Virus record (IMG/VR): IMGVR_UViG_3300036651_000286
Location: 1-21,593 of that record
From: a virus
DNA length: 21,593 bases
Direction: 5' to 3' (one strand)
Below are positions 3,119-12,268 of this stretch, one piece after another; the stretch's first letter is position 1, and every line of letters starts with the position of its first letter. A model generated the notes under the pieces. The model was not told where the DNA came from. It ran no database searches and saw only the letters and a list, made by a program, of their open reading frames with translations. The position numbers and the translations under genes are program-made.

Positions 3119-5155
3119 TCACTGGGACGGTTGCATACCAGCAGGTTGCGCGGCGGGAGTCGGGGCTTGCGGAATAGTTGGCTCGGGATTGTTATCGGCG
3201 TTGGTGTTCGGGTTAAGGAAGTCCGCCTGACGTGCGCCATGTTCCATCTGGTTGGTTTGTTCCTCAGCTTCGTGCATAGGATCCGGTTGCATGTGCAGGA
3301 TCGTTTCAATCTCAGACCTAACGAACGGTGAAGCGTACTGGTAGATGGTGGCGATAGCACTGTACTCGGCCTTTTGCAGTTCGTAACTGGATTTTTGTTC
3401 CTCAGCACTTGGACCAGGAGGAGCCTTCGCAAGCATATTATTAAACGTCTCGTCACTCATTTCAGGGTCTATCTGCTTGAATATCCAACGGTTAGACTCT
3501 ACGGGGTCAAAGATCGGGTTGTTGGTCATGCGTTCGAATATCTGGTTAAGTTTCTGCCCGACCTCTAGTTGACGCTGTTTAGTTGTGGAATCGAGTTCCA
3601 CATGTGGTTCCCATTCACCGTTAAATTCATAAGGATCGTAGTCTTTGAACTGAACACCTTTCGTGCCAACGATACGGACCACCTGTTGTTCGGTCACGAA
3701 TATCTGAATCATCTTGACAAGGATGCGGCCAAGTTGGGCGTAACCTTCCTGCTCCAAGTTTTGAATCTTAGTAGCAAAACGGGTTTGCGCCTGTCCAAGT
3801 ACCTGAGAGACTTCGGTAGCCGTGGTGCGCCCCTTGTTCTGCATGGTGCCCTGGATAGCCTCATCAGCTCCCGTAGCACTTCGCATATCAGCCCTAACAC
3901 GGTCTTTTTTCTCATCCAGGTTACCGGCAATCTCAGCGATTGGCATGGAAGAAATAGCGTTCTTCGGTATCGGGTACACCGCGCCTGGGATCGTTTCAAT
4001 CTCAGGAGCGAGATCAGCGAATTGCGGGTCGATTTGATACATCGGCGTGTTCTGGTAAGCAAGGTTGTCGATGTCCATACTCTCAAGGTCGTTGAGTTCC
4101 TCGGCACGGTCAGCAATCAGTTCAATCTCGCCGCCCCCATAGAACTGGGAAGTATCGACGTAATCACGAAGTACAGCGAACGGCAGAAACGGATCAATCT
4201 TATCGAGCACCTTCTTGGAAGGAATCATGTTGCCGGGGTTTGTCGGGTCTTGTACCTGGACAGTCTTGGTAATCTGGTCGCGCTGGAACGGTATTTCCTG
4301 GCTAAAGATAATCTCTTTGTCATTGCCAATTTCCACTTCCATACCACTGTTTAAGTCATACAGTTTGGCGATGAACACCTGATGCAACGGGGCTTCTACA
4401 CCTAACGTAGAACCGTTGAACTGGTCTTTATACTGCTTATCGGTAATCTTAGTGTTACCGGCAGCACCAGCCGTAGCAAAACCAATACGGTCAAGCTGGA
4501 CGGGATCATATTTCGGCACCATCTTGTCCTGCTCGGGGTCATAGATGAGCTCGCGCTTCATAGTGTCTTTGTCGCCCAGGTACACGAAACCGGCGTACAT
4601 CGCGTTCGGTGAACCGTCGGGGTTGACCAGAGCGGTGGCCTGTGGGTTTACAAAGAAGTCACGGATAGGAATGTTCTGAATCCGTGGTTTGTCATTCTCC
4701 CAAGTAATATAGAGGATGCCCGTACCGTAGATGAGCATGTCGCGTACCCATTCCTGGTTGACGAGTCCGATATTGTTACAGGCGAGATAGTAGTCAAGTT
4801 GGCCGTTTAATACGGCGATGTCATCTGTCTGTTCCTCGTTGGTCTTGACGAAATGAAAATGAACGCCTGAACCGGCGATGTTGGCCACAAGCGTTTCAAT
4901 AATAGTGTGCGTCTCGGGGAGAACGGGATCTGAAAGCCCGTCATAATGACGCATGACGCGCTTCTGTTTATAAATCTTGAAGTAGTTATCCCACTGGACA
5001 AGATAGTTGTTCGAAATGTACTTGCGACCATGCTCGTACATTTTCTCCGCGTCTTCGAATGATAATTTACCGGAGGGTGCGGTGAGTGCGGTGCTGGCGA
5101 CGGTGGGCTTTTCGTCGTATGAGCTCTGGTTTGTCTTGGCCTGTGTGGGTTTCAT
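3119..5155 (-). CDS. Portal protein, 678 aa
   Basis: Large protein located directly after terL and before scaffold and coat, the canonical portal position. It forms the dodecameric ring at one capsid vertex through which DNA is packaged. Recognisable portal features are IIETLVANIAGSGVHFHFVK near residues 86-105, MLIYGTGILYITWENDKPRI near residue 140, IRDFFVNP near residue 164, and the FLPFAVLRDYVDTSQFYGGG segment (about residues 323-342), which leads into IELIADRAEELNDLESMDID. The C-terminal ~60 residues are Pro/Gln/Asn-rich. The ATG used here lies inside the end of terL (89-base overlap) and has only AAAGAA upstream. An internal Met at 5041 has GGAG just before it and begins 25 bases after the terL stop, so the true start is uncertain. 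P22/SPP1-like rather than lambda-like in appearance. Confidence 0.9.
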   Translation of the reverse strand: MKPTQAKTNQSSYDEKPTVASTALTAPSGKLSFEDAEKMYEHGRKYISNNYLVQWDNYFKIYKQKRVMRHYDGLSDPVLPETHTIIETLVANIAGSGVHFHFVKTNEEQTDDIAVLNGQLDYYLACNNIGLVNQEWVRDMLIYGTGILYITWENDKPRIQNIPIRDFFVNPQATALVNPDGSPNAMYAGFVYLGDKDTMKRELIYDPEQDKMVPKYDPVQLDRIGFATAGAAGNTKITDKQYKDQFNGSTLGVEAPLHQVFIAKLYDLNSGMEVEIGNDKEIIFSQEIPFQRDQITKTVQVQDPTNPGNMIPSKKVLDKIDPFLPFAVLRDYVDTSQFYGGGEIELIADRAEELNDLESMDIDNLAYQNTPMYQIDPQFADLAPEIETIPGAVYPIPKNAISSMPIAEIAGNLDEKKDRVRADMRSATGADEAIQGTMQNKGRTTATEVSQVLGQAQTRFATKIQNLEQEGYAQLGRILVKMIQIFVTEQQVVRIVGTKGVQFKDYDPYEFNGEWEPHVELDSTTKQRQLEVGQKLNQIFERMTNNPIFDPVESNRWIFKQIDPEMSDETFNNMLAKAPPGPSAEEQKSSYELQKAEYSAIATIYQYASPFVRSEIETILHMQPDPMHEAEEQTNQMEHGARQADFLNPNTNADNNPEPTIPQAPTPAAQPAGMQPSQ

Positions 5156-6947
5156 TTCTTTGTTTTGTTGGTTTGTGCACGTTTACGTTGTCTAAATCAT
5201 AAGCGTTCCAGTTGGCTAATTGCAAGTTTATTGCCTTTGCCATCACGCAGTCGTCGAACATGTTTTCCTGAGCCCCGAAGTGGCCGTTGTCATCAATGGC
5301 ATAGGTCATACATTCACGGATGAATACTATGTCATAGTCGATTATATCATCTTCTCGGATTGCTCGCCTGAGTTCGTTAATAGCAATGGGTTTCGTCTTA
5401 CGATTTGTTTGCCAACCCATCTTGCTGGTACGTTGCTGGAACTGTTCTTCTTCGGAAGTTTCACGCTGGTACAGGTTACGGTAAAACTTGTCACGGAGTC
5501 GCTGAGCGGTAGTGAGCCCTTGATTGTTCGTTTCTGCTGCAATAAGCGCGTAGTTGTAGTAGGTGCCAATATCGAAAGCCAAATCACCCAACAGGTCGGG
5601 GTCTATATGGCCGCGCCAACGGGCAACCGTCTTGAGCGTATCGGTACGCATCACGTCAATCACCGAGAAGTCACCGGCACCACCGTTATCTTTGCTGATT
5701 TCAAGTCCCTCTGAAACGTCAATCGCAATGGTATACTTCGCGTCTTTTTTCGGTAGTTCCCATACTTTGAGTGGAGTCGGATCCTGGCCTTCAATCGAAA
5801 CCTTGACGAATTTGCACACGTAGTTCATCGCGCCGTGGTCGTCCTTTTCACGTTCAATCTGACCGAATACCGGCTGGTTTTCCGGTAAGCGAGCACGTTC
5901 TTCCATACGGATGAGGGAACGGGTATCAAAGGCGGAACGACCAGAAGCCAGGAACGCCTCAGTATCATCCTTGGGGTATTCCTGGTAAAACTTACCCGGG
6001 TCGGAACGAAACTCCTTCTTTTTCTCACGCCGCCACATGATCTTGCGATCCCAAGATTCTTTAGGATATTTCGCCTTAACAAAAATATCCAACAGTTCTT
6101 TTTCCTCGTCGTCGTATTCAGCGATGGTTCCCTCAATCTCGTATTCGGGATGCTCATGCCACGCAAAGAACAACGGTTTGAAACGCGACTCGCCCTTCTT
6201 AGCGAACTGCCACTCGTCGTAGAAGTAGCCACCAACACCATTAGCGGTAGATTCCAAGAATACAAAGGTGTTCGGGAGCAGAGGAACGGCCTGTAGTGCG
6301 GCGGAGAGGACGTCGGCACCGTTTTGCCAGAACGCTACCTCGGAGCCATGGAAAAAGAGAATAGTGTCGGAGCGGCCTTCACCTTCACCGGCAACCATGG
6401 TCTGAATCTCGGACTGCATACCAGGGATGGGTTTGCCATTGGTGCGGTAGTCTTCCTTAACCGCATCCTCGACGTCGAAGGTCAAGGCGTTCACCGTGTT
6501 ATATTTTCGAGACGGACGAAATTGCGGGTGGGCGTTGTCGTAGTACCGCCTAAACATCTTATAAAGGTTCTGGGCAGCCTTCTTTTTATGGGCAATGATG
6601 ACGGCGTTCTGGTACTTATTGGTAGTAGTCCACCAGTAACCCAAGGCTTCTATGATGGTGGAAAGTCCCATCTGGCGCGCTTTCAGGATAATGTAGCGCA
6701 CAGGTACGCCTTTGGTTAAATCCTCCAGCACTTTATCAACAAGAATACGCTGGGCCCAATTCGGCTCGAGCGGCACCATCATGCCCCGCTTATCCTTAAT
6801 CATCAGGTTGCGTTCAACGTAAATCCAAAAGTCTTTAGCGATAACACGGATAGCCTGACGAGCCTGTTCCCGTGGGTCGAGGTCGTCGTAATCTTTAATC
6901 CGGCTTCTTACCAGAGCTCGGGTTTCTTCGGTGAGTTCTTGGGCCAT
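5067..6947 (-). CDS. terL: Terminase large subunit (DNA-packaging ATPase/nuclease), 626 aa
   Basis: Both catalytic halves are visible. ATPase: Walker A-type KARQMGLST at residues 89-97, a Walker B/catalytic-Glu region ILFFHGSEVAFW at 196-207 with SE instead of the usual DE (common in this phage subgroup), and coupling motif LESTANG at 231-237. Nuclease (RNase H fold): AIDVSEG with Asp410, AAETNNQG with Glu472, and FDDCVMA with Asp565/566. The enzyme cuts concatemers and pumps DNA into the procapsid through the portal. The start overlaps the end of the upstream ribbon-helix-helix gene by 40 bases and the end overlaps the annotated portal start. The ~45 residues after the nuclease domain are basic and low-complexity. 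The length of 626 is somewhat longer than the typical 450-600. Confidence 0.95.
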   Translation of the reverse strand: MAQELTEETRALVRSRIKDYDDLDPREQARQAIRVIAKDFWIYVERNLMIKDKRGMMVPLEPNWAQRILVDKVLEDLTKGVPVRYIILKARQMGLSTIIEALGYWWTTTNKYQNAVIIAHKKKAAQNLYKMFRRYYDNAHPQFRPSRKYNTVNALTFDVEDAVKEDYRTNGKPIPGMQSEIQTMVAGEGEGRSDTILFFHGSEVAFWQNGADVLSAALQAVPLLPNTFVFLESTANGVGGYFYDEWQFAKKGESRFKPLFFAWHEHPEYEIEGTIAEYDDEEKELLDIFVKAKYPKESWDRKIMWRREKKKEFRSDPGKFYQEYPKDDTEAFLASGRSAFDTRSLIRMEERARLPENQPVFGQIEREKDDHGAMNYVCKFVKVSIEGQDPTPLKVWELPKKDAKYTIAIDVSEGLEISKDNGGAGDFSVIDVMRTDTLKTVARWRGHIDPDLLGDLAFDIGTYYNYALIAAETNNQGLTTAQRLRDKFYRNLYQRETSEEEQFQQRTSKMGWQTNRKTKPIAINELRRAIREDDIIDYDIVFIRECMTYAIDDNGHFGAQENMFDDCVMAKAINLQLANWNAYDLDNVNVHKPTKQRNETHTGQDKPELIRRKAHRRQHRTHRTLR

Positions 6948-7192: not shown

Positions 7193-7388
7193 GACGGCTT
7201 TTCCTGAGTTCAGTTTGCACCCCTAACGCCAAACCCCTGATGCTGGCAACACTTGCGTCTTTTTGGATAAGGCACTTAACGCCCTTCTTATCCATTACGC
7301 CCACGAACCTCAGGGACGGTTCATCAAAAAACCAAGCCACTTGCGGCGCATGTCTACGCAGTATTTCAAGCCTTCGTTGTACGGTCAT
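7176..7388 (-). CDS. Hypothetical basic protein between recA and the RHH gene, 70 aa
   Basis: Family not recognised. I place the start at the ATG at 7388 (MTVQRRLEILRRHAPQVAWF): it has GGGGG about 6 bases upstream and overlaps the end of recA by only 23 bases. A longer open frame upstream would overlap recA by 146 bases and begin with an unconvincing Arg/Ser/Pro-rich stretch. The protein looks like one small alpha/beta domain (FFDEPSLRFVGVMDKKGVKC) with a basic C-terminus. It overlaps the next gene by 17 bases, so it belongs to one translationally coupled recA-to-portal operon. Confidence 0.65.
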   Translation of the reverse strand: MTVQRRLEILRRHAPQVAWFFDEPSLRFVGVMDKKGVKCLIQKDASVASIRGLALGVQTELRKSRHGKAS

Positions 7389-8238
7389 CAAAACCCCCGT
7401 AGTACAGTTTGAACGTGGCCTTACGCCACGGATCGTTGACCTTCGACTTAATGATCTCGGCGGTAATCTCCTGACCTTTAAAGGGTGGGCCAGACTTCGG
7501 GAAGCGAGCACCTTTAGAGGTACGGAGTTGGATAATCAGACTTGCCGTGTAGGGCACACCAGTGCCGCCAGGCGTGTATTTGACGGGGTACATGGAGTTT
7601 AGGAGCTCACGTTCCTGGTTAATGATAACCAGCGCCGTGTTGGTGCGCTTGAGTTCCATAGGAATGAGTCTCATGAGTTTGTTGGCAATCTTGGCCTTCT
7701 GGCCCATGTTGGCGTCTGCGGCGTTACCGGAGGCCTCAGTACGGAAGGTGCAAGCGGCTAGGCTATCAAAGACAATCATGTCGAATTTAGCATGTTCCAC
7801 GGCCGCCATAATCACTTCATAGATGTCCTCGATAAAAGCCGAATCGTTATAGAGGGTAAAGTTGTCGGAATTGAGCCCCATGTTTACCAGGAGTTCAGGA
7901 TTAAGTGCAGCTTCGGAGTCAATGTAGAGGATTTTCTTATCGGACAAACCTTTAATCATATTAAGGCAAAGGGTGGTCTTGCCCGCTGAGAGTGGACCCT
8001 GGATCTGGGTAACACGGCCACGGGGTATCTGCGTAAGTGCATCGAAGTCTGGGATGCCGGTGGTAATCCATGAGACGGAATCGAGCCCCATTTTTTTGAA
8101 CTGGGCGAGATGATAGGCGCGGTCATACACGGGAGGACCTACGCCCCGGGCTGCCGCTTGGCGGCACTTGGGCGAACAGTACTTTGAGTCAACCCGTTTG
8201 CTAGGGTTTTCACCCCCGCACTGCTCACATTTTTTCAT
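7366..8238 (-). CDS. recA: RecA/UvsX-type recombinase with N-terminal zinc-finger, 290 aa
   Basis: Homologous-recombination ATPase that would form filaments on single-stranded DNA. Seen in the sequence: Walker A GPLSAGKTT (81-89; RecA has GPESSGKTT), YIDSEAALNP with the catalytic Glu109, Walker B DMIVFDS (153-159), and the INQERE motif (206-211; RecA has INQLRE) followed by a GG-containing loop like RecA loop 2. Unusual: residues 4-25 hold a C-x2-C-x13-C-x3-C zinc-binding motif (KYCSPKCRQAAAR) absent from standard RecA. At 290 aa it lacks most of the usual RecA C-terminal domain. Start chosen at 8238; an in-frame ATG at 8250 is also possible, while one at 8304 would lie upstream of the putative TATACT promoter. 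First gene of the leftward packaging operon. Confidence 0.9.
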   Translation of the reverse strand: MKKCEQCGGENPSKRVDSKYCSPKCRQAAARGVGPPVYDRAYHLAQFKKMGLDSVSWITTGIPDFDALTQIPRGRVTQIQGPLSAGKTTLCLNMIKGLSDKKILYIDSEAALNPELLVNMGLNSDNFTLYNDSAFIEDIYEVIMAAVEHAKFDMIVFDSLAACTFRTEASGNAADANMGQKAKIANKLMRLIPMELKRTNTALVIINQERELLNSMYPVKYTPGGTGVPYTASLIIQLRTSKGARFPKSGPPFKGQEITAEIIKSKVNDPWRKATFKLYYGGFDDRTTKA

Positions 8239-8264
8239 ATTTATTTCCATGCTTATATACGACA

Positions 8265-8292
8265 AGTATAACAAATTATCTGTGACACATAA
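8265..8292 (-). promoter_or_regulatory. Leftward promoter candidate for recA-terL operon
   Basis: Minus strand: TATACT (8265-8270) as -10, with a weak -35-like TTATGT 16 bases upstream. An operator-like TTATCTGTGACA copy occupies the spacer. Expected transcript start is near 8258, leaving a leader of about 20 bases before the recA ATG. The weak -35 plus three repeat copies upstream suggests regulation by a bound protein. Confidence 0.5.
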
Positions 8293-8332
8293 AGATTTTG
8301 TCACAGATAATTGTACGATATGTCACAGATAA
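8276..8332. repeat. Three operator-like repeats TTATCTGTGACA upstream of recA
   Basis: Exact 12-bp copies at 8276-8287 (plus orientation), 8299-8310 and 8321-8332 (both inverted). The first two face each other across 11 bp. The second and third are direct repeats 22 bp apart, about two helical turns, so proteins bound to them would lie on the same DNA face. Identical copies occur at 10411, 10432, 10770, 10787 and 13207. Confidence 0.85.
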
Positions 8333-10816: not shown

Positions 10817-11197
10817 TTATTCTAGCACTGCCTCAATGTTCAAATTAAGGTGTTTACTCTCTGAACGTTGCAATGCTTTACCGCGTACATGATCTATAAC
10901 AAAGTGAGCGTTTTTGGTTGCAATACGCTCGTCATCACTCTGTACCATGCCTTCTACTCTCTCAATTGCCCCTATAGCTATCCGTTGCATTTTAAGATCA
11001 ATATATTCTCCGGCGTCTAACTGTTTAGCTTTTTCTTTGATCAACCATGCGCGCCTACTAGGATCAGTTACTTCAGGTTCTATTACTTTAACCGCTTCTG
11101 TTGCATTGTCTTCTGTCATTATTGCAGCTTCAAATTTGGCTACTGTAGCAGGTGTTACGATTCTATATGGTCTGTTTGTTTTACGTTTATACGCCAT
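10817..11197 (-). CDS. Small DNA-packaging-like protein, possible terminase small subunit, 126 aa
   Basis: Basic N-terminus (MAYKRKTNRPYRIVTPATVA), a helical middle, and a C-terminal segment KNAHFVIDHVRGKALQRSES followed by an Asn-rich LNLNIEAVLE end. The form 'alkaxxxxldhvxGKaxQrse...nie' at the C-terminus is what I associate with phage terminase small subunits and related packaging proteins. Against this, it is almost 4 kb from terL and stands alone on its strand beside the repeat region. TerS proteins bind pac or cos sites, so the neighbouring repeats could be its target. No good Shine-Dalgarno lies before the ATG. Codon use is AT-richer than in the packaging block. Confidence 0.5.
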   Translation of the reverse strand: MAYKRKTNRPYRIVTPATVAKFEAAIMTEDNATEAVKVIEPEVTDPSRRAWLIKEKAKQLDAGEYIDLKMQRIAIGAIERVEGMVQSDDERIATKNAHFVIDHVRGKALQRSESKHLNLNIEAVLE

Positions 11198-11254: not shown

Positions 11255-11369
11255 GTTATATAGAATTAAGCTTGTAAAAGAGAGATGTTTATATCTGTTA
11301 TTATACGCCGTTAACAGGGGTAACACAAGTATTTTGTTCGTATTCTGTTTAAGATTATTCATAAAACTA

Positions 11370-11399
11370 TTGACCACAAGCAACCGTGTATGCTATTAT
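11370..11399 (+). promoter_or_regulatory. Rightward early promoter
   Basis: TTGACC, 18 bases, TATTAT, with a TG one base before the -10 (extended -10, TGCTATTAT). It is the best rightward sigma70-like promoter in the divergent region and would start the transcript that carries the structured leader and the early genes. The words before its -10 (ACCGTGTATGCTA) resemble those of the promoter at 16755 (ATCGTGTATGCCTA). Confidence 0.6.
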
Positions 11400-11455
11400 A
11401 TAAACAGTCGCAAATGAAACGGTAAGCGACTACAGCATAAACCACAACCGGGCAA

Positions 11456-11472
11456 GCGAGCGAAACTCTCGC
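11456..11472 (+). other. Small leader hairpin
   Basis: GCGAG and CTCGC form a 5-bp stem around a 7-nt loop in the predicted 5' leader, about 40 nt before the larger structured RNA. Between them lies a GC-rich word, GGGCCCGGGC. It may be part of the same folded leader. Confidence 0.3.
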
Positions 11473-11511
11473 ATGATAAACAACTAAAAGGGCCCGGGCG
11501 GAAAATGCAAC

Positions 11512-11614
11512 GCTAGAGTGCTCTCAGCTGGGAATGCTGGGTAATGATAGCAATATCAAGTCGAGAATGACGGCCATTAAGTACCCCTAGAATCCTAGCC
11601 GTGAGCACTCTAGT
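11512..11614 (+). ncRNA. Compact structured RNA in the early-operon leader
   Basis: A closing stem of 11 perfect pairs joins CTAGAGTGCTC (11513-11523) to GAGCACTCTAG (11603-11613). Inside are hairpin CAGC/GCTG (11525-11539), hairpin TGATA-GCAA-TATCA with a GNRA tetraloop (11545-11558), and stem ACGGC/GCCGT (11570-11574 with 11598-11602) stacked directly on the closing stem. GGTA (11540-11543) can pair with TACC (11582-11585) inside the loop of that last stem, making a pseudoknot. The region has no gene and lies about 105 nt downstream of the likely transcript start. It matches no riboswitch or ribozyme consensus I know. A cis-regulatory element, ribozyme or stable phage RNA are all possible. 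The fold was drawn by eye. Confidence 0.6.
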
Positions 11615-11642
11615 AAACATTAATTTAAACAGGGGCCATATT

Positions 11643-11702
11643 ATGCAATATGAGCTACAGGGTAAAGCGCCACGCTGGATAGATAAAATCCTAGCACGTT
11701 AA
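11643..11702 (+). CDS. Possible 19-aa leader peptide
   Basis: MQYELQGKAPRWIDKILAR, preceded by AGGGG about 9 bases upstream. Its ATG lies exactly in the 4-nt loop of a 6-bp hairpin (CATATT / AATATG, 11637-11652), so translation could depend on leader folding. It begins 29 nt after the structured RNA. It is too short to judge by composition, and could be a real leader peptide or chance. Confidence 0.35.
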   Translation: MQYELQGKAPRWIDKILAR

Positions 11703-11723: not shown

Positions 11724-11801
11724 ATGATTGTAATACATTACAGTCAACGCCGCTTCGAGGATCGTAAACCACGGATCATCAAGCGAAAAAGTCAATACTA
11801 G
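11724..11801 (+). CDS. Possible 25-aa basic peptide
   Basis: The frame starts MIVIHYSQRRFEDRKPRIIK and ends with Lys, Arg and Tyr before TAG. It is very basic, with a GGGAAGGG purine block about 12 bases before the ATG. It follows the 19-aa frame by 21 bases and precedes the ArdC-like gene by 35. Compact spacing and ribosome-binding-like sequences make translation plausible. Function unknown. Confidence 0.35.
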   Translation: MIVIHYSQRRFEDRKPRIIKRKSQY

Positions 11802-11836: not shown

Positions 11837-12268
11837 ATGACAGCATTTAATTTTGCAACTAATAAAGAATACGCTGGTAGCAACGCGACGCTGCAAGGCA
11901 ATGGCAAGTATAACGCATTTGCTAGTTTCAATCAGATAGCTAGCTTAGGCTATAGCGTCAACAAAGGCGCAAAAAGCATCCCTATATTTTGCGGTTACCG
12001 TGAGAGTAAAGACGGTAAGAAGACAATACCATGCTGGGGCCGCGTGTTCGATATCGTAGACACTAACGCGTTGCAAGATCCGGATCTAGTAGAATTTTTA
12101 GAGAATGGCAAGCGCGTACCCTCTGAGCTGCAAGTCAATCAAGAAATGGTAGCTGCATTTTATGGTGGTGCTCAAGCGGTTGAGAAGGTCAAGCAAGCAT
12201 ACAGTAAAGAAGTAAAAGCAACAGATATGATGCGATCGCTAGGGATCGAAGTTGTATCAGTAGCATAA
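11837..12268 (+). CDS. ArdC-like N-terminal-domain protein, putative antirestriction, 143 aa
   Basis: Residues about 24-76 (YNAFASFNQIASLGYSVNKG, then AKSIPIF, then a charged turn and WGRVFDIVDT) follow the pattern of the ArdC N-terminal domain (DUF1738 type): an aromatic 'w...qa...G..V.kG.k...i' followed by a variable loop and 'vFd..qT'. In plasmid ArdC this domain binds single-stranded DNA and protects incoming DNA from restriction. The metallopeptidase half of full ArdC is absent, so this is a domain-only version. It is the first sizeable gene after the early promoter, a usual place for counter-defence genes. AAGGGGAG lies upstream. Function by similarity only. Confidence 0.55.
   Translation: MTAFNFATNKEYAGSNATLQGNGKYNAFASFNQIASLGYSVNKGAKSIPIFCGYRESKDGKKTIPCWGRVFDIVDTNALQDPDLVEFLENGKRVPSELQVNQEMVAAFYGGAQAVEKVKQAYSKEVKATDMMRSLGIEVVSVA

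Follow-up and report, generated by a model that had tools for sequence, protein, structure and literature searches.

A conserved three-domain RNA leader ahead of the early operon in a clade of uncultivated tailed phages, apparently a new RNA family

Among phage RNAs able to reprogram RNA polymerase with no protein involved, the put RNA of HK022-like phages is, to our knowledge, the best studied; it is about 70 nt long and brings about antitermination in cis through the zinc-binding domain of the β' subunit. Lambda nut sites combine boxA with a boxB hairpin (a GNRA-like pentaloop) and work with the cognate N protein, and bacterial mRNAs of the ompA type carry stabilizing stem-loops at their 5' ends. 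The putL element of HK022 lies just downstream of PL, has pairing from about nucleotide 3, folds into two stem-loops, and acts independently of phage proteins (PMC9378689).

The window analyzed here is the whole of virus record IMGVR_UViG_3300036651_000286 (21,593 nt, 21.6 kb), which holds two oppositely oriented gene blocks. Packaging and structural genes make up the leftward block, and an early/replication block encoding an ArdC-N-like protein, helicases, an exonuclease, and RusA runs rightward from about 11643. The leader described below occupies the divergent control region that separates these two genome arms, and the early operon is read rightward from one promoter; its length is 10 kb or more in the window and about 16 kb in the relative MW202692. 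The features of the window, with their basis, are:

3119-5155, leftward block: portal
5067-6947, leftward block: large terminase
7366-8304, leftward block: RecA-like protein
11370-11399, plus strand: early promoter of sigma70 type, TTGACC-18-TATTAT (promoter scan; same promoter in 12 leaders)
11407-11430, plus strand: H1, the 5'-terminal hairpin GUCGC-AA-AU-GAAACG-GU-AA-GCGAC (model R2, covariation, fixed promoter distance)
11448-11497, plus strand: P2 domain with outer stem CCGGGC (11448-11453)/GCCCGG (11492-11497) (MFE fold)
11456-11487, plus strand: P2c hairpin GCGAG-CGAAACU-CUCGC (11456-11472) and A-rich strand AUGAUAAACAACUAA (11473-11487) (model R1, covariation)
11512-11614, plus strand: H3, the fold reported originally (folding energy; MFE and alternative folds compared)
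11615-11642, plus strand: A/U-rich spacer, largely open, with Shine-Dalgarno-like AGGGG (11631-11635) (sequence, ensemble fold)
11643-11702, plus strand: first small ORF, 19 aa, MQYELQGKAPRWIDKILAR, putatively coding (ORF reading)
11724-11801, plus strand: second small ORF, 25 aa, net charge +6, MIVIHYSQRRFEDRKPRIIKRKSQY, putative (ORF reading)
11837-12268, plus strand: partial ArdC-N-domain protein, 143 aa, the first larger early gene (Pfam PF08401, E = 2.7e-6, passing the curated cut-off)

The layout is thus promoter, H1, P2, H3, open spacer, Shine-Dalgarno sequence, and tiny ORF, the whole leader measuring about 240 bases. The original prediction had singled out positions 11512-11614 as a fold in gene-free DNA downstream of the early promoter, and this location is correct, the earliest plausible ORF past the fold beginning at 11643. 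It had also treated these 103 nt as a compact functional fold in their own right, but they are the 3' domain (H3), and the least conserved one, of a three-domain leader H1-P2-H3 that extends from about +1 to +210.

Like put, this leader is a promoter-proximal early RNA, with H1 at about +1/+2 and 6-8 nt from the -10 element in 12 leaders. Put has two stem-loops in about 70 nt, whereas H1 and P2 take up about 90-210 nt and H3 is added to them; the leader is also larger overall (about 210 nt versus about 70), its loops and stems are different, and no terminators to read through were identified in its operons. By analogy, put would be its closest functional counterpart; as to homology, the models R1 and R2 (described below) gave no significant match to HK022 positions 22000-40751 (best E = 0.17), a weak negative given how short the models are. 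A short hairpin in an early leader and small basic peptides encoded early are shared with lambda-type nut systems. Unlike these, the leader has a loop of 7-8 nt rather than a GNRA-like pentaloop, forms an RNA from +1, shows no identified boxA (the host's own boxA may differ), and has no single N-like protein conserved among the first ORFs. The base-paired 5' end resembles ompA-type stem-loops, in contrast to which the leader has sequence-conserved loops and two more structured domains.

No similarity to the leader DNA was found in annotated phages, nor its exact pattern in viral contigs; because the leader had no match at the DNA level, we sought relatives via neighboring proteins. The ArdC-like protein gave zero relatives as bait, and the productive baits were the helicase, the large terminase, and a 126-aa protein encoded divergently beside the leader. 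The resulting 12 distinct leaders, taken from metagenomes and one catalogue genome, are those of the window and of loci L002, MW202692 (L003), L007, L008, L009, L010, L011, L012, L014, L019, and L021; a thirteenth, more divergent leader was read by eye in L020. L012 belongs to a genome bin named Saccharibacteria and L011 to one named Dependentiae. L018 has a promoter and no leader of the H1-P2-H3 type, and none was recognizable in the stretch read of L164, a small-protein relative at greater distance that comes from a different genome of the Saccharibacteria bin's phylum. Among 380 sampled genomes of that phylum, the only convincing match was the phage contig already known. The 126-aa protein itself (10817-11197, minus strand) has a C-terminal block, DERIATKNAHFV...RGKA.QR, that is invariant in all relatives; Pfam and PHROG searches gave no match for it, and judged by its position it is possibly a small terminase subunit.

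We built two covariance models from the relatives only, leaving the window out: R1 for P2c (36 positions) and R2 for H1, both with E-values that are rough owing to short calibrations. The best matches of R1 and R2 in the window were 11452-11487 (49.4 bits, E = 1.6e-10; next E = 0.37) and 11407-11430 (23.5 bits, E = 1.9e-5; next E = 0.54), respectively, and the two scans found no second leader copy there. Over 22 loci, R2 ranked ten leaders ahead of any other match and R1 recovered seven, i.e. its building subgroup and L008; the leaders of L002 and L009 have diverged too far for either model and were placed by eye. Matches of R1 in two other Patescibacteria genomes (E about 0.004-0.006) were discarded as chance, lying at repeat-like inverted sequence without the promoter-plus-H1 motif. 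The pattern CAACACGGCAAGC-N-TAAACG matched more than 100 contigs with almost fixed spacing; as R1 found nothing in five such loci, these matches were set aside as copies of a single, unrelated repeat sequence. Rfam gave no match at the gathering score for the window or the loci of the 11 relatives, in line with the original failure to assign the fold to a known class, and a permissive Rfam search returned chance-level matches only.

In the window, the first pair of H1 lies 7 nt past the -10 element, at about +1/+2 of the transcript. This distance is 6-8 nt in all 12 leaders (exactly 7 in ten of them), indicating that the RNA begins at the first bases of the transcript. Across the leaders the outer stems of H1 are variable and the loop NACACG and 3' arm GCAAGC are conserved. 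Among the 8 alignable sequences, 84% of H1 cells pair compared with 67% after shuffling, and the covariation score is 0.49 compared with 0.24 (0 of 500 shuffles), both being measured against shuffles that ignore kinship.

The outer stem of P2 encloses P2c and the A-rich strand. Outer stems differ in sequence among leaders and reach up to 12 bp, with a combined p of 7e-7 for which the 6-mer scored in the window differs from CCGGGC/GCCCGG; single leaders, e.g. L007, are unconvincing. P2c has a stem of 5 bp and a loop of 7-8 nt, and is followed by an A-rich 3' strand that reads AUGAUAANCAA in the main subgroup. Since the P2c hairpins that diverge most came out misaligned in MAFFT, covariation was assessed on an alignable subset or on hand-placed hairpins. 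In this subset of six sequences, pairing holds in all 30 cells, 3 of the 5 pairs have changed on both sides, and the score for covariation is 0.60 versus 0.25 for shuffles that ignore kinship (0 of 500). When 12 hairpins were placed by hand, 58 of 60 cells paired against a shuffled mean of 37 (0 of 100,000), although these hairpins were partly picked because they pair and the shuffles again ignore kinship.

The expectation of a structured RNA in the early leader is therefore borne out by compensatory changes in homologues. Conserved loops, 3' arm, and A-rich strand, together with stems that vary while pairing is kept, make up the pattern of a recognized RNA. The structure is conserved in a clade of uncultivated tailed phages; we consider it almost certain that these leaders form an RNA family, and the family appears to be new.

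H3 retains several of the elements originally described. The 11-bp closing stem, CTAGAGTGCTC (11513-11523) with GAGCACTCTAG (11603-11613), is perfect at all pairs and is extended by a G11512-U11614 wobble; a best stem of this length has p = 5e-4 in mononucleotide shuffles of the 11512-11614 stretch, and the site is one of 3 in the whole window with an 11-bp inverted repeat inside 130 nt. The 116 nt from 11505 to 11620 have a folding energy of -44.1 kcal/mol, compared with -26.9 ± 3.2 kcal/mol for 200 dinucleotide shuffles (z = -5.4, 0/200), and the minus strand folds equally well (z = -5.8), as expected for an inverted repeat. The GCAA (GNRA) hairpin UGAUA-GCAA-UAUCA (11545-11558) is part of the predicted MFE structure. 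The second stem, ACGGC (11570-11574)/GCCGT (11598-11602), is present and directly adjoins the closing stem, but it is not the favored pairing: forcing it costs about 9.5 kcal/mol (-33.8 versus -43.3), and the MFE structure instead pairs GCUGGGA (11527-11533) with UCCUAGC (11593-11599). The GGTA/TACC complementarity is likewise present, with a longer form GGGTA (11539-11543)/TACCC (11582-11586), which in the MFE structure is an ordinary nested stem and not a pseudoknot. The inner structure of H3 given here for the window is that predicted by folding.

Most relatives carry a long hairpin of unrelated sequence in the same place. Its size ranges from a plain hairpin (L019, L021) or 10-13 bp (L002, L003) to an arm of up to about 100 nt, and in L009 it was looked for and not found. 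The inner fold of the window's H3 is unrecognizable in the relatives, its inner sequence being common to none. Inside H3 of both L008 and L012 is a CTATC-GATAG hairpin whose loop could, by eye, pair downstream (ACAGC/GCTGT and GAGC/GCTC, respectively), a possible pseudoknot with one two-sided change.

Both flanks of the structured region show recurrent features. TTGACC-18-TATTAT ranks among the region's best matches in the promoter scan, and its -35/-10 spacer lacks the GGCYTATGG found in most relatives. A GGCYTATGG-like spacer is kept in the early promoters of L003, L008, L009, L011, L014, L019, and L021, and internal promoter-like sites of L019 and L024 resemble it; its conservation could reflect the promoter type that the host prefers, or else an operator. 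At the other end, all leaders finish in an open A-rich spacer with a Shine-Dalgarno sequence, and in the ensemble of the window's leader the start region is unpaired (ATG 99%, upstream ACAGG 82%). A terminator was looked for in this leader and none was found, including 3' of H3. After most leaders the first ORF is small (19-56 aa) and its product usually basic (net charge +1 to +9); these first ORFs span more than one family, some being membrane-peptide-like, and L010 opens with a 155-aa acidic protein. The MIVIHYSQRRFEDRKPRIIKRKSQY ORF resembles, by eye, the first small ORFs of L019 (MIMFVHYSTKRIESRAPRKIIHKG) and L003.

Repeated motifs also occur elsewhere in the window. There are 8 exact copies of TTATCTGTGACA (0.11 expected), at 8276, 8299, 8321, 10411, 10432, 10770, 10787, and 13207; several form direct or inverted pairs with 17-23 bp spacing in the left-arm control regions, and to judge from the sequence they look like a repeated operator or activator site. 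ATTATA-N4-9-TAACAGRGGT is found at 11300 and 12869 and also in L002, L003, L007, L008, L011, and L012, lying 5' of genes or of the early promoter both in the window and in the majority of its relatives. GTTAGCGTAACA occurs twice in direct orientation (10527 and 10545), at a distance of 18 bp, with similar copies upstream in L002.

As we model it, the leader most likely assists either the synthesis or the preservation of the long early message. Our leading proposal, made by analogy with HK022 put and with a probability of roughly 0.35, is that it may be a cis-acting nascent RNA that loads on RNA polymerase. The leader would fold as soon as it is transcribed and would be recognized in cis by the transcribing polymerase (or an elongation factor) via the conserved H1 loop and the P2 hairpin and A-rich strand. 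It would then, in the manner of HK022 putL RNA, remain with the polymerase and confer resistance to pausing or termination across an early operon of 10-16 kb, and H3 would serve as a variable insulating hairpin between the RNA domain and the open ribosome-binding site. That open site and the lack of a terminator make the leader unlike an on/off switch. Because intrinsic terminators beyond chance were not found inside the window's early operon, nor strong terminators in that of MW202692, antitermination would have no evident target. Rho's RNA-binding domain turned up in none of 40 genomes of the family of L012's Saccharibacteria bin, where positive controls were found, and in 25 of 26 genomes of the Dependentiae, the group of L011's bin; without terminators and Rho, an anti-pausing role would remain.

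Protection of the 5' end and regulation by a bound protein are close rivals of the put-like reading. According to the first, which we rate as unlikely, a hairpin pairing the first transcribed bases and two stable hairpins would shield the early mRNA from 5'-end-dependent decay, with the open spacer allowing strong translation of the first genes. The position of H1 at about +1/+2 and the open A-rich spacer with its Shine-Dalgarno sequence, found in every leader, agree with this, as does an H3 that keeps its stem and not its sequence, as expected for a structural insulator; left unexplained is why sequence is conserved in the loop and 3' arm of H1, in the loop types of P2c, and in the A-rich strand. 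A phage or host protein could bind such conserved loops carried by variable stems, either at an N/nut-like antitermination site or at an autoregulatory operator for the tiny basic early peptide that usually follows the leader, but the small ORFs are not one family and no boxA-like partner was identified, and we regard this second rival as unlikely too, slightly more so than the first.

With its roughly 210 nt of untranslated structured RNA and its conserved exposed loops, the leader might instead act in trans, processed or as is, as a small RNA that decoys a host factor or regulates by antisense pairing; this is improbable, as neither a terminator nor a processing site sets it apart from the operon and it always stands immediately 5' of the early genes. 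The dense pairing and GNRA tetraloop had suggested a riboswitch or self-cleaving ribozyme, a reading that did not hold up and that we now consider highly improbable: no riboswitch expression platform is visible, since no terminator follows H3 and the start site is open, the interior of H3 is not conserved and H3 is sometimes a mere hairpin or missing, and the absence of Rfam matches in the window and the relatives' loci extends to the ribozyme cores of known classes searched for in the window. Equally remote is the possibility that the region acts at the DNA level, as hairpins of a replication origin or as a primer transcript, and is no mRNA leader; this would suit a divergent control region between genome arms but not an H1 phased to the promoter within 1 nt, or loops conserved on stems of varying sequence, unlike double-stranded protein sites.

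Taken to its full extent, the put-like reading would define a new class of phage RNAs that act in cis and independently of protein, start at +1, bind RNA polymerase during elongation, and maintain its processivity along an early operon of 10-16 kb. The hosts of these phages may be Saccharibacteria or other poorly known bacteria, at least some of them seemingly without Rho; this wider claim is tentative, and less probable than the put-like reading itself. If true, the leader would be a second, unrelated-looking, covariation-supported +1 leader and thus an independent test case for the control of elongation by nascent RNA. It is a candidate family for Rfam, in a phage clade that genome bins link to Saccharibacteria or Dependentiae. 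Even if it were only 5'-protective, it would represent a regulatory RNA conserved among phages whose host bacteria are hardly open to genetics.
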